Origin: Acidomonas methanolica
GTDB lineage: Bacteria > Pseudomonadota > Alphaproteobacteria > Acetobacterales > Acetobacteraceae
DNA length: 64,000 nucleotides
Assembly: GCF_004346035.1 (NCBI RefSeq)
Contig: NZ_SLZN01000006.1
Location: 62,001 to 126,000 of the forward strand
Direction: 5' to 3'
In this document: piece after piece, positions 3,493 through 38,162 of the stretch
How positions within the stretch are numbered: position 1 is the stretch's first letter
Layout: every line of letters begins with the position of its first letter
Notes under the pieces: model-generated
What the model saw: the letters and a program-made list of their open reading frames with translations, nothing else
What the model was told of the DNA's origin: nothing
The model's database searches: none
Program-made: the position numbers and the translations under genes

Positions 3493-3853
3493 ACGGGGTT
3501 GGACAGGAAAAAATCAGTGAATGGTGGACAGTCTGCCTTTGTCGTCGAAGCTGAGATTAAGGGTTGCGTTGGGCGCGTTGGTCGCGCGAGGATTGAAAGG
3601 CGCATGACCAGTTGCCGCGCGTGAAAGCGCATGGAGACTGGATCGACGCTGGGTGGGGTGAGCGCCGGAGCGCGATGGGAAAGGGTGCATCGACGCCCTG
3701 TGGGCGCGCGTCCGCGACATGATGCGATGCGGACGAGGTGGTCGGACGCGGAAGACTCCGCAGCGCAGCCTGAAGACCGTGACTGCTGGCGATGGCTGAC
3801 AGGTCAGCGCATGCAGCAGAAAGGATCGATCGGGTCGATCCGGATGTCGCGCG
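3493..3853. other. Intergenic region, possible small ORF
   Basis: About 360 nt between the gene at 3148-3432 and the C5 methyltransferase. On the minus strand an open frame ends at 3514 with a protein-like tail (TNAPNATLNLSFDDKGRL). I see no ribosome binding site for any of its starts, so it is not called a gene. Confidence 0.3.
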
Positions 3854-8985: not shown

Positions 8986-9026
8986 TGTGCTGTCTCCGTC
9001 ATGAAACGTGGGGGACACCAGACCCT

Positions 9027-9992
9027 CTATGGGAGGTGCTGGAGGGCGAGAAACGACGGGTTCAGTTCGCAGCCGATGAACCGACGTCGAAGGCGCGTTG
9101 CCGCCCGTGCGGTGCGGCCGCTGCCTATGAAGGGATCGAGAACGATGTCGCCGATCCGTGAGCCGGCCAGCACGCAGGGCGTGACAAGGGCATCCGGAAA
9201 GACGGCGAAATGCTCGCCTTTGAGAGGCTGGGCGGCGATGGTCCAGACATCGCGCCGGTTGCGACGGGGCCGCGCGCCGATCTGATGCAGCCTGCCGCGC
9301 AGATTGCCGTTCGGGCCGGTTGCGCGTTCTCCGGGAGGCTGGCGGACCGGCCGCAGATTGCCTGGCGCGCGAGGATCGGAAGACGGCTCGGAAATCGCTT
9401 CCCGATCGAAATAGTAGCGGCGCGCCTTGCTGAGGAGGAACAGATATTCATGGGCGCGGGTGCAGCGATCCGTGACACTTTCGGGCATCGGGTTCGGCTT
9501 GGCCCAGATGATGTCCTGGCGCAGATACCAGCCATCCTGTCGCAGTGCGAACGCCAGCATCCAGGGGATGCCTATCAGATCCTTGCCCTTGAAGCCTTCG
9601 GGCGGTGGTTGCCAGCGTCCACCGCGTGGTCCGCGTGTCCGGGCGCCGTATGTCTCCCAACGATGGCCCTGGCTGCCCCCGCCCGATTTCCCGGTCCCGG
9701 CGTAGCTGTCGCCGATATTGACCCAGAGGGTGCCGTCATCGGCCAGCAGCTTGTGGACCTCGCGAAAGACGGCGAGGAGATTGTCGATAAAAGCGGCCGG
9801 TGTTGTTTCGGTGCCGATCTCGGCGTGGCTGTCGGGATGATCGGGTGGAAGATACTGGCGCAGACCGAAATAGGGCGGGCTGGTCACGCACATGTTGACC
9901 CGCACACCGTCGTCGGCCATCTGGCGCAGCAACAGGCGGCAGTCACCGATATGGGTGCGGCCGAGCCAGGGCGAGGGCGTGGTGAGCGTCAT
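9027..9992 (-). CDS. Site-specific amino-DNA methyltransferase
   Basis: Encodes a 321-residue N6-adenine or N4-cytosine methyltransferase. The catalytic motif IV (TSPPYFGLRQY) lies near residue 37, and the SAM-binding motif I (DPFIGSGRTARAA) near residue 286, giving beta-class order. SPPY is common in N4-cytosine enzymes, so cytosine is possible. The start at 9992 overlaps the end of the DUF3158 gene in ATGA fashion; a much longer reading to 10373 overlaps that gene and is rejected. No partner endonuclease is present, so it is a solitary methyltransferase inside an ICE maintenance operon. Confidence 0.9.
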   Translation of the reverse strand: MTLTTPSPWLGRTHIGDCRLLLRQMADDGVRVNMCVTSPPYFGLRQYLPPDHPDSHAEIGTETTPAAFIDNLLAVFREVHKLLADDGTLWVNIGDSYAGTGKSGGGSQGHRWETYGARTRGPRGGRWQPPPEGFKGKDLIGIPWMLAFALRQDGWYLRQDIIWAKPNPMPESVTDRCTRAHEYLFLLSKARRYYFDREAISEPSSDPRAPGNLRPVRQPPGERATGPNGNLRGRLHQIGARPRRNRRDVWTIAAQPLKGEHFAVFPDALVTPCVLAGSRIGDIVLDPFIGSGRTARAATRLRRRFIGCELNPSFLALQHLP

Positions 9993-10498
9993 GGCATGGA
10001 CTCTCCCTGCTGCATCAGCATACGACCGGCACAGACCCGATCGGTGTCCCTGAGCTTGTCGGCGCAGTCCCCGGCCTGCCGCGCCAGGGTATGGAGCAGG
10101 CTCACCTGCATGTTCAGGACGATCCGCTGGCATTCCATCGCCTTGAGGTCGTCCAGGAGCGACGCGGGCGTTGTCGGGTCGGCGATCAGGGCCTGCCACA
10201 GCGCCACGCCCATCCGGGAACGGTCGCGGTTGCGCCAGCGCAGGAAGGTCGTGCCTGCGCCAGTGGGTTGCTGGGCCAGTTGCACATTGAGGAGCGCAAA
10301 CGGGTAGCGGTTCGTCTGCGCCAGAATTCGCCGCTGCGCCAGGGTAATGAGGTCGTCCCGAAGGGCTGAGCACTGGCTGGCCCAGGTCTCCAACCCCTTA
10401 CCTTTAAAAGGTTGTAAAAGGCCTTTTAGGTAGGCTGCGTGTTCCAGTCGCTGGAAGTCTGTCTGTTCCAGCGGAATGAAGTGGGGGCTGCCGGTCAT
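9989..10498 (-). CDS. DUF3158 family ICE protein
   Basis: Encodes 169 residues, alpha-helical and soluble, assigned to DUF3158 by content and by its conserved place between the TIGR03761 protein and ssb in PFGI-1/ICEclc-type elements. Visible segments include ALRDDLITLAQRRILAQTNRYPFALLNVQLAQQ and GTTFLRWRNRDRSRMGVALW. Its ATG overlaps the upstream stop (10495-10498), and its stop overlaps the methyltransferase start. Function unknown; probably element maintenance. Confidence 0.75.
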   Translation of the reverse strand: MTGSPHFIPLEQTDFQRLEHAAYLKGLLQPFKGKGLETWASQCSALRDDLITLAQRRILAQTNRYPFALLNVQLAQQPTGAGTTFLRWRNRDRSRMGVALWQALIADPTTPASLLDDLKAMECQRIVLNMQVSLLHTLARQAGDCADKLRDTDRVCAGRMLMQQGESMP

Positions 10499-11313
10499 TC
10501 GTCACCGCCTTCGCCAGCAGAAGAGTCGCCGGCGTCGTCTGATGTCTCCTCGGAAGGGGGCTCGGGTTCGCTGTCCGGCGACACGGGTGCCGGTTCGGCG
10601 GTGGCGCTGCGGCGCGGGGGCGAAGAAGACGAAACCGAACGCCGGATCACGGGCGGGGCGAAGCGCGAGCGGCGTGTGCCGTCCAGCACGTCCTGCGGCA
10701 AAGTGCCGAACTTCTCGATCGCCGCGCGCCCGGCAGCGTTCATCGAGACGAAATCGTCGCGCGAGCAGCCGGAATAGCGATATTGCTGGGCCAAGCTGAA
10801 CAGGCTGCGCAGCGCATGTGCGCCCTCATTGAGCCAGCGTTCGAGCGTGGAGCGGTCGATCAGCGCGGTGTGGTGCGCAAGAATCAGCTTGCGGGCGAGT
10901 TCATCGTAATCGGCGAGCAGATACAGCGCCATGAACCCCAGTTGCGACGAGATGAAGAGGGGCAGCTTGACCGGCTGCACGTTGAGATTCTCGCCGACGC
11001 TCAGGGCGGACGGCAGACCGGCCAGCGCCTGGTCGACCTGTTCGCGCAGCGTGTGAAGCTGGTCCTTCGTGGTGTTCAGCTTTTCTTCAATGCGCAGCAT
11101 CCACCAGTCGCTGTAGGGATCATCCTGTTCGGCGCCGCGCTTCATCCGGTTCATGACGGCGACGTAGCCATTGAGGCCGACGATGGCCGGCTTGCCGTCG
11201 GACGCCGCGCGGCCATGCCAGATGCGGGAAGCATGATGGGTATGCAGCGTCAGCGACATCGTGCTGCGCAATGAGCCAAGATTTAACTGAAGGGTTTCCG
11301 TCGAACTGGACAT
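10495..11313 (-). CDS. TIGR03761 family integrating conjugative element protein
   Basis: Encodes 272 residues from the ATG at 11313, preceded by GAGGCGG. The body matches the PFL_4669/TIGR03761 type: LHTHHASRIWHGR near the N-terminus, then PAIVGLNGYVAVMNRMKRGAEQDDPYSDWWMLRIEE and HALRSLFSLAQQYRYSGCSRDDF. The last 60 residues are a low-complexity Ser/Pro/Glu tail. In related ICEs it directly follows the STY4528-type protein; here hipBA and a repeat block separate them. Unknown molecular role in ICE maintenance. Confidence 0.8.
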   Translation of the reverse strand: MSSSTETLQLNLGSLRSTMSLTLHTHHASRIWHGRAASDGKPAIVGLNGYVAVMNRMKRGAEQDDPYSDWWMLRIEEKLNTTKDQLHTLREQVDQALAGLPSALSVGENLNVQPVKLPLFISSQLGFMALYLLADYDELARKLILAHHTALIDRSTLERWLNEGAHALRSLFSLAQQYRYSGCSRDDFVSMNAAGRAAIEKFGTLPQDVLDGTRRSRFAPPVIRRSVSSSSPPRRSATAEPAPVSPDSEPEPPSEETSDDAGDSSAGEGGDE

Positions 11314-11431
11314 CGGCACCGCCTCGCAAGGAAAAGACGCCCAAGCATCCGGTCGATCGGGAAGGCTGTCAGTCGCCAAACCGCATCGGTGCGGGGCCGG
11401 ATAGACCCGAACGGCGTGTCCGTGGCGAGAC

Positions 11432-11995
11432 CCGGAAGGCTGCGTGTTGCGTTATACCCCGGGTATAATTGGCGACGACGCTCCATCGGGCTCCTGTCCG
11501 GTGCGGAGAACCGAAGAGCCGGTTGGCGTCGGATGCCACCGTCAGATGCGCCATGCCTGCCACCCGTAGGCGTTGGGCGCGGGGGTGCGACCCATGAAGT
11601 CCGGTCCGGAAGGCTGCGTGTTGCGTTATACCCTGGGTATAATTGGCGACGACGCCCCATCGGCCTCCTGTCCGGTGCGGAGGAACGAAGAGTCAGGCGG
11701 CCTTCGGCTGCTGCTGTCAGGCGTGTCATGCCTGCCACCCGTGGGCGCGGCCGCCGGCGGTGCGGCCCATGAAGTGCGGTCTGGAAGGCTGCGTGTTACG
11801 TTATACCCTGGGTATAATTGACGACGACGCCCCATCGGCCTCCTGTCCGGTGCGGAGGGCCGAAGAGTCAGGCGGCCTTCGGCTGCTGCCGTCAGGCGTG
11901 CCATGCTTGCCACTCGTGGGCGCGACCACCGGGGGCGGCGGCCCATGCAGCCCGGTCTGGAAGGCTGTCTGTTACATTATACCCAGGGTATAACT
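11432..11995. repeat. Four tandem ~175-bp repeats, each with a 17-nt palindrome
   Basis: Four imperfect units with palindromes TTATACCC-N-GGGTATAA at 11452-11468, 11626-11642, 11801-11817 and 11977-11993. Spacing is 174, 175 and 176 bp. The arms are identical in all four while the centre varies (C, T, T, A). Flanks (GGAAGGCTG..., GACGACGC, CCCATGAAGT) are also repeated but less perfectly. Open frames in the array are by-products of the repetition, and the changing period breaks any frame. It separates the divergent TIGR03761 gene and hipB, so a shared operator array or iteron-like site is likely. Confidence 0.85.
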
Positions 11996-12066
11996 GACGG
12001 GATCGGGTGCCACAGGTGCCGGTTACCAAGGCTCGCAACGTCCTTGAATTCTCGCCAAACACATCA

Positions 12067-12083
12067 TATATGACGCATATAAT
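12067..12083 (+). promoter_or_regulatory. hipBA promoter -10 with overlapping palindrome
   Basis: TATAAT at 12078-12083 overlaps a 6-3-6 palindrome, TATATG-acg-CATATA (12067-12081), 18-34 nt before the first hipB ATG. A repressor such as HipB bound here would cover the promoter. Confidence 0.45.
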
Positions 12084-12100
12084 CTGTCTTTCGGTCAAAT

Positions 12101-12481
12101 ATGGTGAGTTATATGGGTTCCCCGAAGGCCAAGACGGCACTTGAACGGCTCGGGCACGATGTGCGAGGCGCGCGTCTGCGGCGTGGCATCGCGGTCGTGG
12201 ATCTTGCCGCGCGCGCGGGAACCTCGCCGAGTTCGATCTCCCGTCTCGAACGCGGCGATCCCGGCGTTGCCATCGGGACTCTTGCCGACGTGCTGGTTGT
12301 TCTGGGCCTTCTTGAGCGTCTCGCCGACCTGATCGACCTTCGCAAGGACGATCTGGGGCTGGCGCTTGCGGCGGAACAGGGACCGCGCAGAGGACGTTCC
12401 TTCGCGGCGCGGCTCCGCAAGCAGAAGGTTCGGCCGGAGAAAGGGCAGGACGTCGTTGACCCCGAAGGGGTATCATTCTGA
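12101..12481 (+). CDS. hipB: HipB-like XRE antitoxin/repressor
   Basis: Encodes 126 residues with a Cro/CI helix-turn-helix at about 13-70 (LGHDVRGARLRRGIAVVDLAARAGTSPSSISRLERGD), followed by a basic tail ending PEGVSF. Two ATGs are possible: 12101 and 12113, the latter having GGTGAG in front. The stop overlaps the hipA start by one base (TGATG), typical of translationally coupled hipBA. HipB neutralises HipA and represses its own promoter; the palindromes upstream are candidate operators. Plus strand, against the surrounding ICE genes, so probably an insertion. Confidence 0.85.
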   Translation: MVSYMGSPKAKTALERLGHDVRGARLRRGIAVVDLAARAGTSPSSISRLERGDPGVAIGTLADVLVVLGLLERLADLIDLRKDDLGLALAAEQGPRRGRSFAARLRKQKVRPEKGQDVVDPEGVSF

Positions 12482-13713
12482 TGGCCGATTTCCACGCCCA
12501 TGTCGCACTTGGAGAAAGCCTGACGCCGGTCGGCCAACTGCGCTTCACCCATGTCGGGCCGCGTCAGTTCTCGACCTTTGCCTACGGGGAGTCCTGGATC
12601 GACAATCCGCGCGGCTTTGCCATAGTGCCGGATCTGCCTCTTGAGGGCGGCCCGTTTCACTGCTCGGGTCAACCGGGTCATCTGCGGGACGCCTTGCCGG
12701 GCGTTTTCGCCGATGCCGCCCCGGACAGTTGGGGGCGCAGGCTCCTGGAACGGGCCTATGGCAACGGCCTCAACGAGTTCGAGTATCTGACGCTGGCCGA
12801 TGATGCCTGCCGGCAGGGGGCGATGCGTTTCCTAGACGGCGCGGGTGAGGTCATTCAGGGCAAGGCGACGGACTCTGTCCCCAGGCTGGTCGACCTGGAA
12901 ACCATCACGACGATCGCTCGCGCCTACGAGGAAGGCAAGGAGATTTCAGCCGGGGACATGCAGGCCCTGGCCGGGGCCGGCGGTTCCGGCGGCGCGCGTC
13001 CCAAGGCGAATGTCAGGGATGGCGAGACGCTCTGGCTGGCGAAATTCACCTCGGTTCATGACCAGCAGCCCATCGAGCGCGTCGAGGTTGCAACGCTTCG
13101 TCTGGCGGAGACGTGCGGACTTCGGACGCCCGGGGCGCGGCTGGAACTGGCGCATACGCCCTTTCCCGTGGCTTTGATCCAGCGGTTCGATCGTCGGGGA
13201 GCCAGCCGGATTCCCTATATTTCGGCGCGCACGGCCCTTGGCAAAACCGGAGCGGAACTCGGCTCCTATACCGAAATCGTTGATTTCATGCGGTCGTGGT
13301 GTTCCGATCCCATGGCGGATTTTCGTGAACTGTATCGGCGCCTGATCTTCACGATCCTCGTCTCCAACAAGGACGATCATCTGAAAAATCATGGTTTTCT
13401 CTATGTGGGAGCCGGTCGATGGCGGATGTCGCCCGTTTTCGACGTGAATCCCGCGCCCGACCGCAACCCGCATCTTGAGACGGCGATCATGGAGGGCGGT
13501 CCGCATGATCGCTCGATCGCGCTGGCCCTGGAAGCTTCCGCGTTCTTCGAGATTCCCGAGCCTGAAGCGCGGATGGAGATCCGGACGATGGCGCGCCGAA
13601 TCTCGGACGGATGGCGCGATATGTTCCGCCAGGTCGGTCTCTCCGGTGCCATGGCGCGCGACTACGAACCGGCGTTCATGAGCGAGCAGATGGATCTGGC
13701 CCTGTCCTTCTAG
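12481..13713 (+). CDS. hipA: HipA family serine/threonine kinase toxin
   Basis: Encodes a 410-residue HipA-family kinase, the toxin of type II HipBA modules; in E. coli HipA phosphorylates glutamyl-tRNA synthetase and induces persistence. The N-terminal subdomain (GQLRFTHVG, ADAAPDSWGRRLLER) is followed by a Gly-rich loop (GGSGGARPKA near 165), an ATP-anchoring WLAKF, the catalytic loop NKDDHLKNHGF near 297 and DVNPAP near 320. All key residues are present, so it looks active. Near-full length for the family. Coupled to hipB. Confidence 0.92.
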   Translation: MADFHAHVALGESLTPVGQLRFTHVGPRQFSTFAYGESWIDNPRGFAIVPDLPLEGGPFHCSGQPGHLRDALPGVFADAAPDSWGRRLLERAYGNGLNEFEYLTLADDACRQGAMRFLDGAGEVIQGKATDSVPRLVDLETITTIARAYEEGKEISAGDMQALAGAGGSGGARPKANVRDGETLWLAKFTSVHDQQPIERVEVATLRLAETCGLRTPGARLELAHTPFPVALIQRFDRRGASRIPYISARTALGKTGAELGSYTEIVDFMRSWCSDPMADFRELYRRLIFTILVSNKDDHLKNHGFLYVGAGRWRMSPVFDVNPAPDRNPHLETAIMEGGPHDRSIALALEASAFFEIPEPEARMEIRTMARRISDGWRDMFRQVGLSGAMARDYEPAFMSEQMDLALSF

Positions 13714-13739
13714 TCATATCTGACTGGAAGCCTCCTGTT

Positions 13740-14864
13740 TCATGTCAGATCCGAGTGTTTCCAGTCCCGGACGGAGGCGCCGCCTTTTGCCTCCCGTTGT
13801 CCGGCCCATGCCCGAAATTCGCCGCGGAGAGCCTTCTGCACGATCCCGAACAGATATCCCGCGGGATTTCGGACCACGCCAGCCCGGCACCGGGCATCCC
13901 ATTCGTCGAAAATAGCCTGATGCCCCGAGGTGTCGGTCGCCCGCAACGCGGCCAGGACGCCAGTCTGCTGGTCGTGCGTGAGTGTGGCGAACCGCTCCGG
14001 GAGGTTCAACGCGCCGGACGCGGACCGTACAGTATGTATTTTACTATTATCTTCTTTTTGTACAGTACTGGCCGTCTTCGGAATCCGAAGAGAGCCGTTT
14101 TCCGGGCGTTTCCGGCTGACTTCGGATTCCGAAGACAGAGAGGCACGATTCCGAAGACGGTGCGGATCACTGTCTTCGGAATCAGGATTATCCCCACCCT
14201 GTGGATAAGTCTGACGCAGGGTCGAGCCCTGCGTCGCCATGCGCTGTGCCATGGCCTGAAGGCGCGTGGGCAGGATCTGATCGTGCAGGCAGGCATCCTC
14301 GGTGATCTCTTTCAGCACCAGCGCGCCGATCTGTTGCAGTGATTTGCTGGCGTGCGTGAGACTTCGGCCGACAAGATCGAGATAGTCCATGTCGAGCTGA
14401 ATCCCTTCGTAGGGCGTCAGGGGTTCGTCGTGCAGGACATAGAGGTTGCCCACGACGCGGCCGGTTGCCGGGTCGCGGCGGCGTCGTGCGAGACTGATCC
14501 AGCGTGTCAGCCGCATGGCCGTCAGGGCGCGGGCGACTGTCTCATGGGATGCCCGACCGGCACCGGGGAGCGATGCGAGATACGGTGCGAGTTCATCGTA
14601 ACTGGGAAAAGCCGTTATGCCGTCGTCGTTGAGCAGGAGACGAAAAACCTGCCAGGCGTTTCTCTCCAGGGGCGTCAGGCGGCGATCGAGGAGGAGCGCC
14701 CTGGGCACGGCATCATGACGGTTGCCGGAGAAGATCAGGCGATCCGCACGGGAGGCGGACTGCCGGGACGATGCGTCCGCGCGTTCAGCCTGGAGACGGC
14801 TTGCGGCATGATCGAGGACGGTCTCCAGCCCTTCGGAACCGCGTGGTGGCCGTGGGCGGTTCAC
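13740..14864 (-). CDS. STY4528-type replication protein
   Basis: Encodes 374 residues assigned to the STY4528 family of pathogenicity-island/ICE replication proteins by position after DUF2857 and ParB and by content: RLTPLERNAWQVFRLLL, ITAFPSYDELAPYLASLPG with a winged-helix-like SHETVARALTAMRLTRWISLARRRRD, then a Ser/Glu-rich linker and a C-terminal domain ending in FRAWAGQREAKGG. Adjacent to the DUF2857 gene with 2 nt between. Probably starts plasmid-like replication of the excised ICE. The 3' half includes CTTCGGAATC repeats (about 14060-14180), giving low-complexity protein. Confidence 0.75.
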   Translation of the reverse strand: MNRPRPPRGSEGLETVLDHAASRLQAERADASSRQSASRADRLIFSGNRHDAVPRALLLDRRLTPLERNAWQVFRLLLNDDGITAFPSYDELAPYLASLPGAGRASHETVARALTAMRLTRWISLARRRRDPATGRVVGNLYVLHDEPLTPYEGIQLDMDYLDLVGRSLTHASKSLQQIGALVLKEITEDACLHDQILPTRLQAMAQRMATQGSTLRQTYPQGGDNPDSEDSDPHRLRNRASLSSESEVSRKRPENGSLRIPKTASTVQKEDNSKIHTVRSASGALNLPERFATLTHDQQTGVLAALRATDTSGHQAIFDEWDARCRAGVVRNPAGYLFGIVQKALRGEFRAWAGQREAKGGASVRDWKHSDLT

Positions 14865-14866
14865 GG

Positions 14867-15427
14867 CTAGATCTGGCCTTCATCGATCCATCCACGAATG
14901 GCGCTCCAGACGACGGAGAGAGGAAGATCGGTGCTCTCGGCAAGATCGGCCGCGAGCGCGAACATGGTCGTCTCGTCGGTCAGGGCGATTTTTCGCTCCT
15001 TGATGGCGGCGCTCCACAATTCCCACAGGTTTGCGTCCTGCTCTTCGGTCAGAACGGGGTGGCGTCCTTTGCGTTTCGGGAGGCCAAGAATGTCGCGGCG
15101 CAGGGCGATTTCCTGGTGCGTCAATCCAAAGAATCTGGTGATCAGCTCGGTGCTGGCTCCAAGGCGCAGCAGGCGATCGACCTCTTCGATTTCCTTGGCG
15201 AAGCTGTGAATCTGTGACAGAAGACGTCTCAGGACGTCCCGATTGATCGTGACGGAACACCAGCAGATCGCAGCATTTGCCAGAATGGCGACCATGGCCG
15301 GGTTCTTGAGCGCGTCCAGGTCCTGTGCATCAAACCCCATTGAGCGGGCGCGGCGTAGCTGCCCGTTCCGCAGGTCATGCAGGGCTTGTGCGATGACTGC
15401 CTGGTTGAGAGGATGCGGGCCGGACAT
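14867..15427 (-). CDS. DUF2857 family ICE protein
   Basis: Encodes 186 residues, mostly helical, with the DUF2857/STY4526 pattern: NQAVIAQALHDLRNGQLRRARSMGF, an inner LGASTELITRFFGLTHQEIALRRDILGLPKRKGRHP resembling a helix-turn-helix, and a helical C-terminus. In ICEclc/SPI-7-type elements this gene lies between parB and the STY4528 gene, as here. A regulatory or replication-accessory role is probable because of the HTH-like segment. Confidence 0.75.
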   Translation of the reverse strand: MSGPHPLNQAVIAQALHDLRNGQLRRARSMGFDAQDLDALKNPAMVAILANAAICWCSVTINRDVLRRLLSQIHSFAKEIEEVDRLLRLGASTELITRFFGLTHQEIALRRDILGLPKRKGRHPVLTEEQDANLWELWSAAIKERKIALTDETTMFALAADLAESTDLPLSVVWSAIRGWIDEGQI

Positions 15428-15438
15428 CGGAGCGCATC

Positions 15439-17109
15439 CTAGCGATCGGGCATCGCGGCAGCGCCCGAGACCGGCGTCCGTTCAAGGTCGGTCAGTCGGC
15501 GCGCCAGCCGGATCAGGCGAAACAGCTTGACCAGTCCCGCGTCGCTCAGTCTGCGGCTTTCGTGATCCTGCATGGCCGTTCCGATCAGCAGAAACCTCAG
15601 ATCGCCGTAAACCATCTCCGGGGATGTCGATGCCGGCGCGGTGCCGCTCAGTGCGTGGAGCAGAGACCGGGCCGCCCGCGCCGCGGTCGGACCGCTCTGT
15701 TCACCCGCAGCGACGGGCGTGTACCGGCAGACGAAACCGAGGCCGGCATCGTCGGGTGAAACACTCTCGTCGTCGAGACCTGCTTCGTGTGCGATTTCAC
15801 GGGCGAATTGCGCGATATGGCTGCGTAGCTGCTCGGGCGTATCCAGGTCGGGTTCGATGTGCCAGACGTCCGAGATCGGGTAGAGGCCGCCTGCACGAAC
15901 GGGGATGGCTTGCAGGACCGTGCTCTCGAAATCAGCGTGGGTCTCGCCGGTGTGTTCGGCGACCAGACGCTGGATGGTGTCGAGCCGGTCACTGCTCCGA
16001 ACCGGCGAGACCACATAATCATCTCTTCTCGTGGCAGGGAGATCACCGAGCGGGAGGTCATCGTCGCCCTCCGTCGGCAGGGAATCCGCCGTTGGGGTAA
16101 CGTCACGAGCGGACGCCGGGATGCGGGGCGGAAGAACCGGCGGGTGAGAGACCGCAGGCGTTGACGGTGACAGTATCTGTGATGGTGGTTGGGGCGGGGC
16201 GGTCGTTTCGGTGGTAAGCGCCTGCCACCGGCGATCCGAATCAACGATCTCAAGCGCGAGGGTATCGTAATTCTCGCCCAGCAGATCCGCCATCTGACCC
16301 ACCAGTTCGTCCTGTACGCGCTGCGCCGAGAACTGACCGGGGTCCACATCGAACGCAGAAAGCACGTCCTGGAAGAGTGTCGGAAAATCCGTGGTGCCCG
16401 TTGGAGAGGTTTGCCGGCTGTCCCAGCATCTTGACGCCGACCGACGCAACGACGTCAGCTGCTCGACCTGGTGTCGGCCAAGACCCGCATAGAGCACATT
16501 CGGAATGGCAGGCAGAAGGTACTGGATCGCCTCCTGCATCCGGCTGATGTGAGGCTGGGGGACTGGATAACCGTCTGTCCGAAGGCGCCGCGCCAGGTCC
16601 GATTGCGTCAATGTCCTGCCGGTCTCCTCCTCATACAGTTCACGCGCCTTGGCAACGCCAAGGGCCCGCTCGATGAAGGTCAGTCCGCCGTGAAGTTCGT
16701 TCTCCGCGAGGTGCCCGGTGAGTGAGAGGATCTCGCCCCGCTGGGGCCAGGGTCGAAAAAGGCAAGCGATGCGATAGAATCGCTCGTCCCGGGTTTCCGC
16801 CCAGAGATCGCGGAGAATGGCGAGCCGCGTATTTCCGCCATTGCGAATGATGTAATGCCCCGCACCCGGTCGACGGGTGATCGGCGGCGGCGCATCGAGA
16901 CCCCGCTCGCGAATGGAGGTCTTGATATCGTCGTAGAGCGGATTACGGGTGATGCGCGGGTCGAGTTCATAGGGGCGCAACTGGTCGAGTGTGACGACCA
17001 TGGGGGTGTCGGTAATCGGGTCACTGAGGTTTTCCACGGAAGGCCCCGCATGACGAAAGCCCTCACTGAGCAGCCTGGCGGCCATATCTTCCGCGGATGG
17101 ATTAGCCAT
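15439..17109 (-). CDS. parB: ParB-like partition protein, ICE type
   Basis: Encodes 556 residues from the ATG at 17109 (GAAGGGAA upstream); a longer reading to 17169 overlaps the HicA-like gene further. N-terminal ParB/Srx fold at about 40-150 (TLDQLRPYELDPRITRN, GHYIIRNGGNTRLAIL, HLAENELHGGLTF), HTH near 170-200 (LTQSDLARRLRTDGYPVPQPHISRM), then a Pro-rich linker (300-360) and a long C-terminal domain. This size and layout match ICE ParB proteins of the PFGI-1 type rather than short plasmid ParB. Stabilises the ICE with ParA. Confidence 0.85.
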   Translation of the reverse strand: MANPSAEDMAARLLSEGFRHAGPSVENLSDPITDTPMVVTLDQLRPYELDPRITRNPLYDDIKTSIRERGLDAPPPITRRPGAGHYIIRNGGNTRLAILRDLWAETRDERFYRIACLFRPWPQRGEILSLTGHLAENELHGGLTFIERALGVAKARELYEEETGRTLTQSDLARRLRTDGYPVPQPHISRMQEAIQYLLPAIPNVLYAGLGRHQVEQLTSLRRSASRCWDSRQTSPTGTTDFPTLFQDVLSAFDVDPGQFSAQRVQDELVGQMADLLGENYDTLALEIVDSDRRWQALTTETTAPPQPPSQILSPSTPAVSHPPVLPPRIPASARDVTPTADSLPTEGDDDLPLGDLPATRRDDYVVSPVRSSDRLDTIQRLVAEHTGETHADFESTVLQAIPVRAGGLYPISDVWHIEPDLDTPEQLRSHIAQFAREIAHEAGLDDESVSPDDAGLGFVCRYTPVAAGEQSGPTAARAARSLLHALSGTAPASTSPEMVYGDLRFLLIGTAMQDHESRRLSDAGLVKLFRLIRLARRLTDLERTPVSGAAAMPDR

Positions 17110-17353
17110 GGCGCGTTCCCTTCTCGCAATGTTGCGCGGAGTGCCGCTGGGCTCGACGAAGCATCGCACGGGCGTTCCGGCCTGAGCGGTGATCGCTGGC
17201 GGTGGAAGCGGTAAAAATCGGGGGGAGTCCCTCCTTGACGAATTTCAGGTGACCTCCGGCGGTCCGATGCACCGTCCATCCTGTGTTCAGGGCATATTCG
17301 ATCAGCGGCAGCAGCCGTTTGTGACCGCGAGCGAGATCACGCGCGTTCGGCAT
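17102..17353 (-). CDS. HicA-like small protein between parA and parB
   Basis: Encodes 83 residues with the HicA/YcfA mRNA-interferase pattern: helix LLPLIEYALNTGWTVHRTAG, GGHLKFVKEGLPPIFTAST with the conserved His, then ARAMLRRAQR. Its start overlaps the end of parA by 17 bp and its end overlaps parB by 8 bp, so it is translated within the partition operon. No hicB follows. In ICEclc a small gene, shi, lies between parA and parB and, with parA, slows growth of transfer-competent cells; this may be its counterpart, an inference from position only. HicA identity is by pattern. Confidence 0.65.
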   Translation of the reverse strand: MPNARDLARGHKRLLPLIEYALNTGWTVHRTAGGHLKFVKEGLPPIFTASTASDHRSGRNARAMLRRAQRHSAQHCEKGTRHG

Positions 17354-18206
17354 CGACAGATCCTCCCTGTGCTCGTCCGGTGACCAGCGCGAAACGCTCC
17401 TGCCATTGCGGGCATAGCTCGGTCGCGACTTCCCGCATGACTTCGAGAGCAGACGGGGCAAGCCGTCCCGACGGGCGGCGGTACTCGACCCTATGCGCGG
17501 GAAGACCTTGCGTGGCCGCGCGCGCAATCGATTCGATCGAGGGGACTTCGGCGTCCATGAGATGGATGGCGGCGTGCGGATCATCCGGGAAAATCAGTCG
17601 CAGGCCCTCGCCGACGAGGCGGGCCGTGGTCGAGATCGCCGGGACGCGGTTGATCAGAAGGTGAAGCGGCGGAGGTTCGATCCCGAGACGTCGAAACGGC
17701 GCCAGGTCCGCGACCAGTTGCAGGGTGCCGCGGCGCAGCTCCCGCGCCGCCAGGATTTCCGGCGTCACGGGTGAGACGGCCAGGTCCGAGGCCAGCAGGG
17801 CCATCTCCAGCACGACGCTGCGCGCCCCCTGCGTGTCGATCAGCAGCAGGTCGTAATATGGCCGGAATATCGGCAGCAGGTTGCGCAGCCGCAGCCGTCC
17901 ATCAGGTGCATGCAGCAGCAGCGTATCCAACTGGTGGTTGGGGTCGTTGGAAAGCACGATGTCCAGGCCGTGTATGACCGTATGCGAGACCAGCTTCTCC
18001 AGCGCGCACTCGTTATGGGCCAGGAGTTCATAAACGCCGCCGGCAGCGCGTCGACCGAGAGGATAATATGATGAGAGTGTGGGTTGGGCATCGAGGTCGA
18101 GCAGCAGGACACGCAGGCCCGCGTCGGCTGCGAAGCCGCCGAGATTGGCGGCCATCGTCGTCTTTCCGACGCCACCTTTGGTCGATACGATGCAGATACT
18201 GTGCAT
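17337..18206 (-). CDS. parA: ParA/Soj-type partition ATPase
   Basis: Encodes 289 residues from the ATG at 18206 with CAGGAG in front. Deviant Walker A (STKGGVGKTTMAANL) at residues 8-22, Walker A' (RVLLLDLDAQPTLSSY) near 40, and Walker B (YDLLLIDTQGARS) near 115. A MinD/Soj-like ATPase that moves ParB-DNA complexes on the nucleoid. In PFGI-1/pKLC102-type elements soj lies near the end opposite the integrase and is needed to keep the excised circle. Downstream of alpA in one operon. Confidence 0.93.
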   Translation of the reverse strand: MHSICIVSTKGGVGKTTMAANLGGFAADAGLRVLLLDLDAQPTLSSYYPLGRRAAGGVYELLAHNECALEKLVSHTVIHGLDIVLSNDPNHQLDTLLLHAPDGRLRLRNLLPIFRPYYDLLLIDTQGARSVVLEMALLASDLAVSPVTPEILAARELRRGTLQLVADLAPFRRLGIEPPPLHLLINRVPAISTTARLVGEGLRLIFPDDPHAAIHLMDAEVPSIESIARAATQGLPAHRVEYRRPSGRLAPSALEVMREVATELCPQWQERFALVTGRAQGGSVDAERA

Positions 18207-18240
18207 GACACGCTCCTGGAAAAGGTTGGGAGGAGCTGCG

Positions 18241-18447
18241 TCAGGATCGTTCCTGGAGACGCGCGGTGATCCAGCGGTCGATCTCGTCCGAATCCCAGCC
18301 GACAGCACGGATGCCGATGCGGATGGGTTTGGGAAATGTGCCCGCTTTGACCAGCTTGTAGATATGGGCTCTCTTGAAGCCGGTCTTGACCTCGACTTCC
18401 GATCGCCTGAGAACACGACGCTCGGACGGAAACGCTGTCTGATGCAC
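18241..18447 (-). CDS. alpA: AlpA-family regulator
   Basis: Encodes 68 residues from a GTG at 18447 with AAGGAAGGA upstream. The winged-helix AlpA/excisionase pattern is clear: RRVLRRSEVEVKTGFKRAHIYKLVKAGTFPKPIRIG followed by VGWDSDEIDRWI. First gene of the alpA-parA-parB operon in ICEclc-like elements, where it acts as a DNA-binding regulator. No upstream gene on this strand, so the promoter should lie in the AT-rich region to the right. Confidence 0.85.
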   Translation of the reverse strand: MHQTAFPSERRVLRRSEVEVKTGFKRAHIYKLVKAGTFPKPIRIGIRAVGWDSDEIDRWITARLQERS

Positions 18448-19091
18448 GTTACGATCCTTCCTTGACGCTTAGTGGAACTCCCGTGTGATTTTAATCAGGC
18501 CGCATCGAGGAGAAGCGCATTCGTCAATGCGGATGCGGAGACGACCCTATTCGCCATGTCTCGGTCTGACCCGGAAGAGGTTCAGGCAGACGGAATCCGG
18601 ACCAGAATGACTATGCTGGTTGGAAGAGACCAATAAAGCGTCTGTTGAGTCGGTCGGTCACATCGTGCAATGCGATCAACGACCAAGGATAAAAAAACGG
18701 CTTTCGGTGAGCCTGTTTTTTGGTTTTCCCAAGTAGAATCCTGCGGGAACGTCTAGCATTATTTTGTTCTGCGCGGATGGAGTTCATGGAAGTAATTTTT
18801 CATTATTTATTATGGGAATTATTATAGTCTCATATGTGTAATCAATAATTGATGTTTATATTGTATGGAATCATATTAATTATTAATAAAATGTAGAAAG
18901 TTTTATATATCTCGCTTTTCTTTTGAGGGTTATTATTTGGATTATACAGAGAAGGATGCACCCACGTCATCGTCAAATGCCCGGAACGAGGCGCGCGGCT
19001 TAGGAAGTCGCCCCGTTCCGGAAGTCAGAAACGACGTTTTTTGCCAATACGGAATGTCAAAAAGGGAGTAGCGCCTTGTCTTGCCCGCCGA
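18448..19091. other. AT-rich intergenic region
   Basis: No gene. About 18750-18940 is strikingly AT-rich in an otherwise GC-rich element (runs such as ATTATTTATTATGGG and ATTAATTATTAATAAAA). It lies upstream of alpA-parA and could contain their promoter, an origin-like melting region or a nucleoid-protein binding site. Confidence 0.4.
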
Positions 19092-33103: not shown

Positions 33104-35482
33104 TCACCGAAGTCTCAGGGCATTGAGCCGCAGTGCGTTTGTCACGACGGCCAGGGAGGACAGGGCCATCGCGCCTCCCGCGAACATGGGCGACAGCGTA
33201 AGGCCAAAGACAGGATACAGTACGCCTGCGGCAAGTGGGATGCCGATCCCATTGAACAGGAAAGAAAATGCCAGATTCTGCCGGATGTTGCGCATCGTCG
33301 CCTGTGCCAGGCGGCGGGCGCGTACCAATCCGGCGAGGCTGCCTTGTGCCAGTGTCATCCCGGCGCTTTCGATTGCGACATCGGTGCCTGTGCCCATGGC
33401 GATTCCGATATCGGCGGTGGCCAGGGCCGGCGCGTCGTTGACTCCGTCGCCCGCCATGGCGACACGGGCTCCCTTCTGTTGCATGTCACGAATGATCGCG
33501 GCCTTGTCCTCAGGCTTGAGGTCGGCATGTACCTCGTCGATTCCCGCCTGCCGGGCGACGACTTCCGCAGTCCGGGCATTGTCGCCCGTCAGCATCACGA
33601 TCCGCATGCCGGCTGCGTGCAGTGCCGCGATGGTCTCCTTCGCGTCGGTCTTCAGCGGATCGGCCACGACCAGCAGCCCAGCGGCCTGTCCGTCGACGCC
33701 GACGAACATGACGCCCGCGCCCTCCGCCCGGTGGGAATCCGCGACAGGGATCAATGCCGACGCATCGATGCCCTGCTGCCGCATCTGGGCTTGGTTTCCG
33801 ACGACGACGGCATGGCCGTCGACGGTGCCGGTCACGCCCAGGCCGGTCTGAGACGCGAAATCCCCGACCGGCGCGGCCTGAAGGCCCTGCGCCGTCATCG
33901 CGGCGACCAGTGCCTGGGCCAGCGGATGCTCAGATTGTGTTTCCAGTGATGCCGCCAGCCGCAGGACGACGTTGGAATCCCATGCACCTGATGTTTCGGT
34001 CGCGATCAGCCGGGGCTTGCCTTCGGTTACGGTGCCGGTCTTGTCGATCACCAGCGTATCGACCGTATCCAGCGCCTGCAGGGCTTCGGCGTTGCGAACC
34101 AGCACGCCGGCCCGCGCCCCGCGCCCCATGCCCACCATGATCGACATCGGAGTGGCCAGGCCCAGCGCGCACGGGCAGGCGATCACCAGGACCGCAATGG
34201 CGTTCAGCAGTGCGTGTCCGAAGCGCGGTTGCGGACCGACCAGAAGCCAGACGACGAAGGTCAGAAGGGACACAAGCACGACCAGCGGCACGAACCAGCC
34301 GGAGACCCGGTCCGCCACCGCCTGGATCGGTGCGCGCGTACGCTGGGCAGCCGCCACCATGCTGACGATCCGGGCCAGCATCGTGTCCGAGCCAACGGCC
34401 TCGGCTGTCATCAGCAGGCTGCCGGTGCCGTTGATGGTTCCACCCGTCACCTTGTCACCCGGTCCCTTGGCGACAGGTGCTGGCTCTCCTGTCAGCATGG
34501 CTTCGTCCACGCTGGAGCGCCCGTCCATGACGGTGCCGTCCACCGGGATGCTTTCCCCCGGCCGGATGCGGAGCCGATTGCCGGGCACGATCTGGGCCAG
34601 CGGTACGTCGTCCTCCCGATCCAGCGCGCCGACCCGGTGTGCGATTTTCGGTGCGAGATCCAGCAGCGCGCGAATGGCGCGACTGGTACGGGCGCGGGCG
34701 CGCAGTTCCAGGACTTGCCCGGCCAACACCAGGGCCACGATAACACCGGCGGCTTCGTAATAGACCGGGACCGACCCGTCATGCATGCGGAAGGCAGCAG
34801 GGAACAGGCCAGGGGCCACTGTCGCGGCGATGCTATAGAGAAAGCCTGCGCCGACGCCCAGCATAATCAACGTAAACATGTTCAGATGCCGGGTGCGGAG
34901 CGACATCCAGCCGCGTTCGAGGAACGGCCAGCCGGCCCACAGCACGATTGGCGCCGTGAGCGCCAACTGAATCCAGTTCGTCAGGCCGCCATCGAGAAAT
35001 GCCAGCCCTCCCATATCCGCCGCCATGGCGATGATAACGAGCGGGACCGCCAATATGCTCGCCCCCCACAGGCGCTTGCTGAAATCCACGAGTTCCGGGT
35101 TAGGCGTGTCGGCGTCGGATGGCTCCTCCGGTTCCAGCGCCATGCCGCAGATGGGGCAGGAGCCGGGGTGATCCTGTCGGATCTGAGGGTGCATCGGGCA
35201 GGTCCAGATCACCCCGACCCGTTTGGGCTGAGACTTGATGGGCGTCGTGTCCGCCTTGTGCAGGTAATGACAGGGGTCGGCTTCGAACTTTGTCTGACAG
35301 TGCGCGCTGCAGAAATACCAGGTCTGGCCATCATGGTCGGCATGATGCGTCGCCGTCGCGGGGTCGACTGTCATGCCACACACGGGATCCTTGACCGGGC
35401 GCGTCTTAACTCCGGTCGCTGCCGGGGTGGGACCCTCTCCATGGAGATGGGACGCGCAAGCTGCTGTATTGTCGTTCGTCAT
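33104..35482 (-). CDS. copA: Copper-translocating P1B-type ATPase
   Basis: Encodes 792 residues from the ATG at 35482 (AAGGGGA upstream). N-terminal YHS domain ([12 protein letters not shown]) and a heavy-metal-binding domain ([22 protein letters not shown]) replace the usual HMA domains. The transmembrane metal site is CPC ([13 protein letters not shown]), with phosphorylation DKTGT, HP motif SEHPLAQAL and hinge GDGVNDAP. Exports Cu(I) from cytoplasm to periplasm. Divergent from csoR with a CsoR-type operator between them, so copper-induced. Confidence 0.95.
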
Positions 35483-35546
35483 GAGGTCCCCTTGTTTGTG
35501 GCCGCCACGCGGCGCCAGACATGCCATAATCGCTTGCGCTCCATGG

Positions 35547-35565
35547 TATGCCCCTGTAGGGTATA
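35547..35565. promoter_or_regulatory. CsoR operator between copA and csoR
   Basis: TATGCCCCTGTAGGGTATA, a near-perfect inverted repeat (TAT-CCC/GGG-ATA around CTGTA), 6 nt before the csoR ATG and 65 nt before the copA ATPase ATG. A copy of its core recurs at 40109-40124. Confidence 0.7.
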
Positions 35566-35570
35566 GTGCA

Positions 35571-35843
35571 ATGAGGCAGTCACGGGTAAAGATTTCGCAG
35601 GGCCTGAAACGGGTCGAAGGTCAGGTGCGTGGCATCCAGAAAATGGTGGACGAAGACCGCTATTGCGTGGATGTTCTGCTTCAGCTTCGGGCCGCCAAGG
35701 CGGCGTTGCATCGGCTCGAGGGGCTTGTTCTGCGCGAACATATCGCGGGCTGCGTCGTGGAGGCGATCGAATCCGGCGATCCGGTGGAACGTCAGGAAAA
35801 GATCGGGGAACTGATCGAAACGGTCAGCAAGATGACGGGGTAG
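35571..35843 (+). CDS. csoR: CsoR-family copper-sensing repressor
   Basis: Encodes 90 residues of the CsoR/FrmR all-helical family. The Cu(I) ligands Cys-His-Cys are present: Cys in [10 protein letters not shown] and His and Cys in LREHIAGCV, with the N-terminal [18 protein letters not shown]-binding helix. Cu(I) binding releases operator DNA. Start at 35571 immediately after the operator. It is the first gene of a rightward operon continuing into the copper-resistance genes. Confidence 0.92.
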
Positions 35844-35845
35844 AT

Positions 35846-36253
35846 GTGCAAGAAATCGGCGCGACACGGTTGGGACGGTTGCTGGCCTGCCTGCTTCTGC
35901 AGGTGGGACTGATGCTGGCGTCCGTCATGCCGGGTCATGCCGCCACGTTGTCTTCTACAGTTGCTTTGGTTACCCAACCGATGGTTGACATGCCAGGGAT
36001 GCAGATGCCATCCCATACGGATGCGACGACCGCACATTGCAATCATGAACCGTGCCACGACCATCATCCATGTCATCATTGCGGCGATTGCTGCGCCCAG
36101 GGTGCCTGCGTCGCCAATTGGCTGATGCCGCCCTCCGTGACCAGGGCGTTTGATTACTCAGGTGTTACGGCACCTTTCGGCCTGTCTCGTTCGGATCGCA
36201 TCGTCGGTCATGGGTTCGCGCCGGCCCTGCCACCGCCCAGAGAGATGGCCTGA
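35846..36253 (+). CDS. His/Cys-rich periplasmic copper-binding protein
   Basis: Encodes about 135 residues from a GTG 2 nt after the csoR stop. Signal peptide (LLACLLLQVGLMLASVMPGHA), then a Met/His/Cys-rich segment with CNHEPCHDHHPCHHCGDCC, and a C-terminal part PPREMA. This resembles CopL-type and other small periplasmic copper-binding proteins encoded beside copAB. The frame is confirmed by the signal peptide rather than by a strong SD; the ATG in another frame at 35844 does not give one. Probably sequesters periplasmic copper. Confidence 0.7.
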   Translation: MQEIGATRLGRLLACLLLQVGLMLASVMPGHAATLSSTVALVTQPMVDMPGMQMPSHTDATTAHCNHEPCHDHHPCHHCGDCCAQGACVANWLMPPSVTRAFDYSGVTAPFGLSRSDRIVGHGFAPALPPPREMA

Positions 36254-36362
36254 TTCTGTTCTGACAGTCTCAGGGCTGGTCATGGACCTATGACCGGCTC
36301 CGCCTTCTCTCTTTTGCGGACTATTATTCATCTCAATACGATCCCTTGCGGGACGGAGCGCG

Positions 36363-38162
36363 ATCACGCGCCGCCGTTTCGTCGTCGGGACGGGCCTGTG
36401 GGGAGCGGCGCTGGCCCTCCCGCAGGGCAGCGCGAGCGCCTACGCTTCGGTCTATACACCGGCGTCGGGGCGGCCCGACCCGCTGCCTGGTACCCGTTTC
36501 GACCTTACGATCGGTTCTGTACCGATCAATATCACCGGTGCGCGCATGCACGCGGTGGGTGTGAACGGCTCCACGCCCGCGCCGATCCTGCGCTGGCGTC
36601 AGGATGACACGGTCGAACTGAACGTCACCAACCGGTTGGATGAGCCCAGTTCGATCCACTGGCACGGCCTCCGGGTGCCGGCCCACATGGATGGCGTGCC
36701 CGGTCTGAGCTTTGGCGGGATCGCGCCGGGTGACACGTTCACCTATCGCTTCCCGCTGCATCAGAGCGGCACTTACTGGTATCACAGCCATTCCGGCTTC
36801 CAGGAGCAGACGGGCCTGTATGGGGCTCTGATCATCGACCCGAGAGACGGTTACGCGCAGCATTTCGACCGCGATTATGTGATGGTATTGTCCGACTGGA
36901 CCGACGTCGATCCCGAGGACATCGTCTCAAATCTCAAATTCCAGAGCGATTACTACAATTTCCGCCAGCGTACGGTGGGCACGTTCTTCCGTGACGCGCA
37001 TCGGCAAGGGCTGGGTGCGACGATCCGGGATCGCCTGCAATGGGGTGCCATGAACATGGCACCGACCGACATTCTGGATGTGTCGGGCATCATCTACACC
37101 TACCTGATCAACGGCCAGTCTCCCGGGGCAAACTGGACTGGCCTGTTCCGACCGGGCGAGCGCATACGCCTGCGCTTCATCAATGCGTCGGCGATGACGC
37201 TGTTCGACGTGCGGGTTCCCGGCCTGACGATGACCGTCGTTCAGGCCGACGGCAATGACGTGGAGCCCATCCCTGTCGATGAATTCCGCATCGGACCTGC
37301 AGAAACCTACGATGTGATTGTCGAGCCCACCGCCGATGGACCGTACACGGTCTTTGCGCAGGCCGAGGATCGCACCGGATACGCGCGCGGCACACTCGCC
37401 ACCCGTCCGGGCCTTGCCGGGCCGGTTCCCCCCATGGACCCGCGCCCGCTGCGCACCATGACCGACATGGGCATGGGGAATATGGACATGAAGGGCGGCA
37501 TGGCAGGCATGGAGATGGGGAGTCCGCCGGGGAAGCCCGGTGATGCCCCTGCCAGCGGCGGCATGGACATGGATCACATGGATATGAAGCAGGCCAACAG
37601 GCCCGGAGCCGCCGCGATGGATATGCCGGGCACGGCGGCTGCGCCGCGGCATAAAACAGAGCTGAAGCCCGGCGTCGCGGTGCAGAGTGTCGCCATGATG
37701 CCGATCAACCGGCTGGCGGAGCCGGGCGACGGGCTGGAGAATAATGGTCGCCGCGTTCTGACCTATGCCGATCTGCGGGCCACGATCCCGGGCGCGGACC
37801 CACGCCCGCCGTCGCGCGAGATCACCCTGCACCTGACCGGCAGCATGGAACGCTTCATCTGGGGATTTGACGGCAAGAAGTTCTCGGAAGCGGAACCGAT
37901 TCGTCTGACTTTGGGCGAGCGGGTGCGCTTCGTCCTGATCAACGACACGATGATGGAGCACCCAATCCATCTGCATGGATTGTGGAGCGAACTGGAAAAT
38001 GGGCAGGGTGACTGCCGACCCTACAAGCACACGATTACCGTCAAGCCGGGTGAGCGGCTGAGTTACCTGGTCACGGCGGACGAACCCGGGCTGTGGGCGT
38101 ATCACTGCCACCTGCTCTACCACATGGAGGTGGGCATGTTCCGCACGGTGGTGGTGTCGTGA
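36363..38162 (+). CDS. copA: Multicopper oxidase CopA (copper resistance)
   Basis: Multicopper oxidase of the CopA/PcoA type, oxidising periplasmic Cu(I). The Tat motif (ITRRRFVVGTGLWGAALALP) begins at 36363. Copper-site motifs: SIHWHGLRVP, YWYHSHSG, HPIHLHG and YHCHLLYHMEVGM, all intact. A Met-rich segment (MGMGNMDMKGGMAGMEMG) lies near the middle. No ATG, GTG or TTG is in frame between the stop at 36291 and the Tat motif; the first is ATG 36546, which would remove it. A frameshift or sequencing error near the start, or a rare start codon, is likely. Overlaps copB by 4 nt. Confidence 0.85.
   Translation: MTRRRFVVGTGLWGAALALPQGSASAYASVYTPASGRPDPLPGTRFDLTIGSVPINITGARMHAVGVNGSTPAPILRWRQDDTVELNVTNRLDEPSSIHWHGLRVPAHMDGVPGLSFGGIAPGDTFTYRFPLHQSGTYWYHSHSGFQEQTGLYGALIIDPRDGYAQHFDRDYVMVLSDWTDVDPEDIVSNLKFQSDYYNFRQRTVGTFFRDAHRQGLGATIRDRLQWGAMNMAPTDILDVSGIIYTYLINGQSPGANWTGLFRPGERIRLRFINASAMTLFDVRVPGLTMTVVQADGNDVEPIPVDEFRIGPAETYDVIVEPTADGPYTVFAQAEDRTGYARGTLATRPGLAGPVPPMDPRPLRTMTDMGMGNMDMKGGMAGMEMGSPPGKPGDAPASGGMDMDHMDMKQANRPGAAAMDMPGTAAAPRHKTELKPGVAVQSVAMMPINRLAEPGDGLENNGRRVLTYADLRATIPGADPRPPSREITLHLTGSMERFIWGFDGKKFSEAEPIRLTLGERVRFVLINDTMMEHPIHLHGLWSELENGQGDCRPYKHTITVKPGERLSYLVTADEPGLWAYHCHLLYHMEVGMFRTVVVS

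Follow-up and report, generated by a model that had tools for sequence, protein, structure and literature searches.

The sopC centromere of the F plasmid is built of twelve 43-bp repeats, each with an inverted repeat, and in ICEclc a set of bisS boxes and a BisD-CTP clamp were reportedly described by Antar et al. in 2025 (NAR gkaf802). Excerpts of the ICEclc literature relate that the parB gene of that element was renamed bisD and its DUF2857 gene bisC, and that the two products together activate promoters including PinR (PMC7423338). PinR is said there to drive the orf95213-inrR-ssb cluster (PMC3395598) from a start site 25 nt upstream of ORF95213, with reported -35 and -10 boxes (PMC2892462). 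BisD itself is described as loading at the bisS boxes, sliding one way and co-activating promoters with BisC (PMC13393423), and is named among the CTP-dependent clamps (PMC12704722). A ParB-like protein acting on promoters from specific upstream sites is also known from VirB and virS, where, as far as the excerpted accounts go, VirB counters H-NS silencing, whereas the ICE protein is reported to act with its partner BisC.

The locus considered here lies in a window of 64,000 nucleotides from Acidomonas methanolica, by which we mean the whole stretch of DNA that was analysed, and it shares with ICEclc the gene order ParA, ParB/BisD, DUF2857/BisC, STY4528, ORF95213/acaB and ssb. A tandem array of ~175-bp units (11432..11995, minus strand) stands upstream of a PFL_4669/AcaB-family gene (TIGR03761, PF08900; 10495..11379, minus strand, with a likely start ATG at 11313), which is the counterpart, by gene order, of ORF95213 in the PinR operon. 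On the other side of the array follow hipB and hipA, and then, all on the minus strand, a gene for an STY4528-family replication protein with origin-like features inside it (13740..14864; matched by order to ORF96323 of ICEclc), a DUF2857 protein gene (14867..15427; the BisC counterpart and proposed co-activator), a TIGR03764 ParB-family gene (15439..17169; the BisD counterpart and proposed binder), which is 3.4 kb from the array, and a gene for a ParA-like ATPase (17337..18416). From sequence comparison we consider it quite probable that the array represents four loading sites for the ParB-type clamp protein of this ICE, the TIGR03764 counterpart of BisD. Sites of that kind are already known from ICEclc; the more novel part of what we propose concerns the wider group of repeats that have been called 'oriV'.

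Each unit of the array carries a palindrome of the form TTATACCC-N-GGGTATAA, and a scan of the window found four copies with 0 mismatches at the 16 specified bases of each, at 11452..11468, 11626..11642, 11801..11817 and 11977..11993, with start-to-start spacings of 174, 175 and 176 bp. A sequence-only reading had reported four palindromes with a drifting period between the divergent TIGR03761 and hipB genes, and both the count and the position are borne out; its description of the palindromes as identical is right for the 16 arm bases and wrong for the centre base, which is C, T, T and A in palindromes 1 to 4, so that identity is confined to the arms. Its contrast between an exactly kept palindrome and drifting flanks also stands: all 16 arm columns are invariant, whereas of the flanking columns that can be aligned in all four units 19 of 45 to the left and 4 of 6 to the right are. 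The search for the motif elsewhere in the element that it had proposed returned only these four copies in the 64-kb window with up to 3 mismatches allowed, and 100 shuffles of the window gave a mean of 0.04 matches, none of them reaching 4. Tandem Repeats Finder reports a single array at 11434-11993 (period 175, 3.2 copies, 87% matches), and the array therefore consists of three full repeats and a fourth palindrome, the likeness stopping just past palindrome 4. The units share a second largely fixed block, GGAAGGCTG...TGTT, which is the reverse complement of ACA..CAGCCTTCC.

Beyond the window this exact motif is rare. With up to 2 mismatches allowed, the host genome has it in the array only, and among 200 genomes sampled from the same family, the host's own included, a scan for exact matches found it in no other. 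One same-family genome outside that sample has an exact copy (L011), in a locus contained in L018 of Gluconacetobacter sacchari, from which the host is probably a member of the Acetobacteraceae. Exact single copies occur in 5 contig stretches of IMG/VR and look like chance; these stretches gave 0 matches to seven proteins of the window, and one copy alone therefore means little. The array DNA gave no match when compared with plasmids.

Placed among its relatives, the array is one form of a widespread layout. A scan of genome contigs with the AcaB protein confirmed 328 relatives, and the best 80 loci were analysed; 78 of them have at least 250 nt of sequence upstream of acaB (L051 and L087 being without upstream sequence), and an exact palindrome of the family lies there in 75 of the 78, as one copy in 29 loci, two in 40, three in 5 and four in 1, with none exact in 3. 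The sites fall into class A (CTATCCCC-N-GGGGATAG), class B (CGGTCCCC-N-GGGGACCG) and class C ([CT]TATACC[CA]-N-...), the last of which includes the window array. In 59 of 77 loci an extra copy stands downstream, at +1.5 to 2.6 kb, and in L052, from Paraburkholderia xenovorans LB400, it lies between ssb and the topoisomerase gene; the window and 8 of the 10 class C loci have no downstream copy in the sequence stretch examined, and in L067 and L097, both class C, there is a site further downstream. Exact sites elsewhere amounted to 4 of 192 in 1.24 Mb, the control pattern giving 0, and whole-genome scans of 20 of the relatives' genomes found 1 to 10 such sites per genome. The palindrome family offers a candidate loading site for BisD/ParB that can be read from sequence across a large ICE family in beta-, gamma- and alphaproteobacteria. 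Spacings between neighbouring palindromes in L018-L097 and the window lie near half-integral helical turns (R ~0.88 at 10.7 bp), a value reached by 0 of 5000 jittered sets, for 10 spacing clusters chosen by hand. In L111, from Klebsiella pneumoniae, ~6 kb of cargo including an AbiE toxin-antitoxin pair sits between STY4528 and acaB, with one palindrome staying near STY4528 and one copy past acaB.

More distant elements have other arms in the same layout. Repeats of 57 bp occupy this place in pKLC102 and one relative and occur in a Pseudomonas veronii plasmid, Serratia pE36_1 and Salmonella pSGI4 have 36-bp repeats, and fewer repeat copies are seen in Pantoea, Duffyella, Citrobacter, Klebsiella and Haemophilus. 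The putative oriV of PFGI-1 and the pKLC102-type 57-bp repeats agree with the window array in location and in consisting of tandem repeats each with a palindrome of ~17-21 bp; they differ in their arms and in a period of 57 bp (36 in the enterobacterial and Haemophilus relatives) against 175. A looser palindrome pattern, tried on five plasmid records, rose clearly above its control only in two (24 vs 15 and 8 vs 3) and was left unused.

To look for the binder, the sites were compared with the proteins encoded beside them. Among the 80 loci, both the helix motif of ParB and the site class were readable in 75, and the two agree in every one: class B (CGGTCCCC) goes with QRSHITRM in 21 of 21, class C (TATACC) with PQPHISRM in 10 of 10 and class A (CTATCCCC) with [QP]QSHISRM in 44 of 44, the five loci left out being L051 and L087, which have no upstream sequence, and L046, L063 and L065, in which no ParB helix falls within the locus. 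In the window the recognition helix occupies ParB codons 203-211 (VPQPHISRM; 16537..16563, minus strand). Across six neighbouring proteins, 11 of 2166 columns tested separate class B from class A, and 9 of these are in ParB (9 of 503, with 205 and 209 in the helix; hypergeometric P = 6e-5 for the excess) and two in STY4528 (2 of 311), with none in acaB (0/230), DUF2857 (0/184), ParA (0/275) or topB (0/663). Class C is separated from class A by 13 of 507 columns in ParB, 13 of 184 in DUF2857 and 9 of 312 in STY4528, and by none in AcaB (0/226), ParA or TopB; 7 of the 13 ParB columns lie within residues 183-250, the DNA-binding region (P = 5e-4). Two of 81 loci, being without a class, were left out of the column count. 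DUF2857 is thus linked to class C more strongly than ParB, which would fit a ParB-DUF2857 pair without singling out ParB.

These counts must be read against the phylogeny. On most of the trees roughly one switch would account for class B and one for class C, and the trees of the different genes agree to a large extent, so the 75 matching loci represent far fewer independent events. Site-class changes number 4 each on the trees for STY4528, DUF2857 and ParB and 5 on that for AcaB, and the gene-tree comparison by itself picks out no binder; the tree builder dropped L090 for AcaB, L065 for STY4528, and L024, L027, L067 and L088 for ParB.

A comparison between lineages suggests a partial residue-to-base code for BisD/ParB sites. 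Among 14 lineages, counted by our own judgement, the 4 with Gln205 all have A at base 6 from the centre, and the 10 with another residue all have another base there (Fisher P = 0.001, or 0.0035 if classes A and C are merged); L114 (a near copy of pKLC102), L115 and L116 (class A), L118 (a weak match) and L123 (no ParB in the stretch) were left out of this table. In an hhalign alignment residue 205 stands opposite an Arg of the host chromosomal ParB (GKSRPHIAN), which by the motif GKSR would be R173 of Caulobacter ParB. The excerpted work on Caulobacter ParB and Noc reports that R173 contacts parS, that the residue aligned with 205 reads an outer base of the site, and that a Gln in position 173 reads adenine at base 1 provided that residue 179 or 184 is a permissive lysine (PMC7383237). 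By our own count base 1 of the Caulobacter parS and base 6 here are at a similar distance from the dyad; the permissive lysine is absent from the equivalent places in the ICE ParB, which by counting along are Met211 and Gln216. Class B elements retain a downstream TATCCCC site, of the A type, despite Arg205, and residue 237 shows no simple code in distant relatives. G at base 6 had been expected to go with Arg205; pKLC102 contradicts this, having His205 alongside G or T at that base.

Several features of the protein and its surroundings bear on the ParB reading. The four palindromic sites of ~17 bp lie near parAB genes, the cognate ParB (TIGR03764) is encoded by the same element, and the site covaries with its recognition helix, with few independent switches. 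The whole host genome holds one TIGR03764 match, inside the element. When CTPase-type N-terminal motifs were looked for, GGNTR and ENELHGGLTFIE were present; hhalign aligns the protein to the host chromosomal ParB with a probability of 89%, without a Pfam ParB match, and searches of solved structures found no ParB. The chromosomal parS of the host, TGTTTCACGTGAAACA, is located elsewhere in the genome, with two copies less than 4 kb from the chromosomal parB. The window also encodes a second ParB-like protein (44842-46896), with PRTRC/Noc-type matches below the curated cut-offs.

The link to ICEclc runs through the ICEclc-like locus L052, which has the reported PinR -35 and -10 boxes with two palindromes of the same family upstream of them; the likeness to bisS drawn here is one of place and gene order. 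Given this arrangement and the reports on BisD and BisC, we infer that the palindromes are bisS/parS-like sites of which the window array is an expanded version, with four copies in 175-bp tandem units and the arm TTATACCC against two upstream copies and the arm CTATCCCC in L052. We had at first assumed that the palindrome was the 27-bp BisDC motif of ICEclc. Excerpts of the report on that motif place it 152 bp from the PinR start site (PMC9286271), which does not fit the L052 palindromes, at ~93-115 and 238-257 bp by our count, and the two are therefore probably distinct.

In proposing how such an array might work, we suggest that a ParB dimer would use its helix-turn-helix to recognise each 17-bp palindrome. 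Once closed into a clamp, it would leave the site by sliding in the direction of acaB, ssb, topB and the transfer genes. The clamp and the DUF2857 protein (BisC) would then activate promoters, the nearest being that of acaB, the counterpart of PinR; with the adjacent ParA, the same sites could also act as the centromere of the excised element. The resemblance to sopC lies in long-period tandem repeats with one ParB-type inverted repeat each beside parA and parB; the arms, the period and the ParB subfamily differ, and a role in partition is here a proposal. Direction could be set by a companion box, since it is one-sided. GCCTTCC starts exactly 11 nt past the palindrome on the acaB side at 23 of the 27 distinct class C sites that precede acaB; for 13 of 62 class A sites the distance is 11 or 12 nt. 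Its background frequency is 0.0002 per position, and it follows 0 of 3 distinct class B sites and 0 of 35 downstream sites. All four window units have the box, on the minus strand, at 11434..11447 (ACACGCAGCCTTCC), 11608..11621, 11783..11796 and 11959..11972 (ACAGACAGCCTTCC) for palindromes 1 to 4, and a fifth box without a palindrome lies promoter-proximal to acaB (11360..11373, minus strand), where it resembles the -35 and spacer of the ICEclc-type PinR promoter; in L052 this position belongs to the -35 region. A one-sided box at a fixed distance is thus a candidate cause of one-way sliding. We infer all four elements of this scheme, namely the equation of the palindromes with bisS, binding by ParB, a role in partition and a direction set by the companion box.

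Of the other explanations, the one that survives best takes the palindromes for iterons of a plasmid-type oriV to which the STY4528 replication protein binds; for the window array we regard it as unlikely. Excerpts of published accounts place a putative oriV of PFGI-1 immediately upstream of PFL_4669 (PMC2647930) and predict an iteron-like oriV in the replication module of the ICEHin1056 group (PMC2258188), and the pKLC102-type plasmids have their 57-bp repeats at the same place. Of 10 records examined, 7 have STY4528, and in every one of these the interval from STY4528 to acaB contains one or more such palindromes, in Haemophilus ICEHin1056 only as an imperfect 36-bp repeat; in the stretches read from the three without STY4528 a perfect palindrome never recurs. 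In five distant relatives the 36-bp arrays have an AT content of 51-67%, above the 41-62% of their loci, and may there belong to an origin. Against the origin reading, AT content in the window array is 29-37% and a DnaA-like box is missing from it, the sole such box in 9001-18500 being at 14200, outside the array, and in L016 and L098 the AT content of the 57-bp arrays is below that of the locus around them. The separating columns between classes B and A likewise speak for ParB (9 of 503) over STY4528 (2 of 311). When the sequence-only reading raised an iteron-like origin, it agreed with the label given to this place in PFGI-1, but the base composition and the missing DnaA-like box do not follow it.

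A different candidate for an origin lies inside the STY4528 gene. There an iteron-like palindrome (CTTCGGAATCCGAAG, 14076..14090) is followed 44 bp on by a second copy (CTTCGGATTCCGAAG, 14120..14134) and by a DnaA-box-like sequence (TTATCCACA, 14200..14208, minus strand; TGTGGATAA on the plus strand), so that 14076-14208 may be an origin embedded in the initiator gene, to which the lambda origin, lying in gene O, can be likened. At least one exact CTTCGGAWTCCGAAG is found in 71 of 75 STY4528 genes, and 68 of the 71 have a DnaA-like box no more than 200 bp away, the overall frequency of the box being 0.06 per kb; among the 25 loci listed individually the box is at -74, shifting to -118 in those whose second palindrome alone seems exact, and L029, L035 and L036 lack either the palindrome or the box. 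Conservation of the protein could explain part of this retention.

The putative oriV of PFGI-1 and the repeats of pKLC102 at this place may be the same thing as the palindrome array; the former was published as a putative replication origin, whereas the covariation presented here points to ParB loading sites. We suggest tentatively, as an idea we would not yet rely on, that the 'oriV' repeats of pKLC102, PFGI-1, SGI4 and ICEHin1056 are, rather than replication iterons, arrays for loading a ParB-type CTP clamp, serving both as centromere of the excised element and as long-distance enhancer of the transfer genes, with a copy number tuned between elements from one to more than ten, and that the real origin is the DnaA box and iterons within the STY4528 gene. 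The published PFGI-1 assignment, and with it the like-placed repeats of pKLC102, would thereby be called into question, and a different origin, inside the replication gene, would be pointed to.

That the palindromes are operators of the neighbouring AcaB/PFL_4669 regulator is improbable. They lie directly upstream of its gene, an adjacency for which AcaB was the first binder we considered, and excerpts of work on IncC plasmids describe AcaB as an activator (PMC11493245, PMC10954446). We dropped it as the leading reading because none of its columns separates the site classes (0 of 230 and 0 of 226). The three AcaB-encoding plasmids without STY4528 (L103-L105) are those in which the stretches read hold no repeated perfect palindrome. 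Structure predictions for AcaB and STY4528 had a mean pLDDT of ~54 each and were not used.

Still less credible is the idea that a TATAAT in the palindrome serves each unit as the promoter of a small transcription unit or structured RNA. Units 1-3 do read GGGTATAAT on the plus strand and each unit can fold, the folds being computed without a shuffled control, yet Rfam gives no match at the array even at E 5, most relatives have TATAG in place of TATAAT, and the interior of class A and B sites is CCCC/GGGG; the small-RNA and promoter reading was rejected on the first two of these grounds.

An operator array for HipB, suggested by hipB being the next gene on the other side, is very improbable: among the 80 related loci hipA occurs only in L018 and a HipB-like protein only in L018 and L090, against the palindrome in 75 of 78, so that the sites do not come and go with hipB, and hipB has a candidate site of its own. 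The alternative offered beside HipB, an operator array for an ICE regulator, holds in outline, because ParB/BisD, the best candidate binder, is a regulator in ICEclc. The candidate HipB operator is TCATATATGA, a 10-bp palindrome before hipB at 12064-12073, and the same 10 bp stand before hipB in L018. Elsewhere in the window, two matches to the radC RNA (RF01754) lie 2 kb apart on the minus strand, at 1665-1822 and 3687-3822, and the cargo at 33104-38162 encodes copper resistance, with a CopA-type P-type ATPase and a copper_res_A multicopper oxidase.
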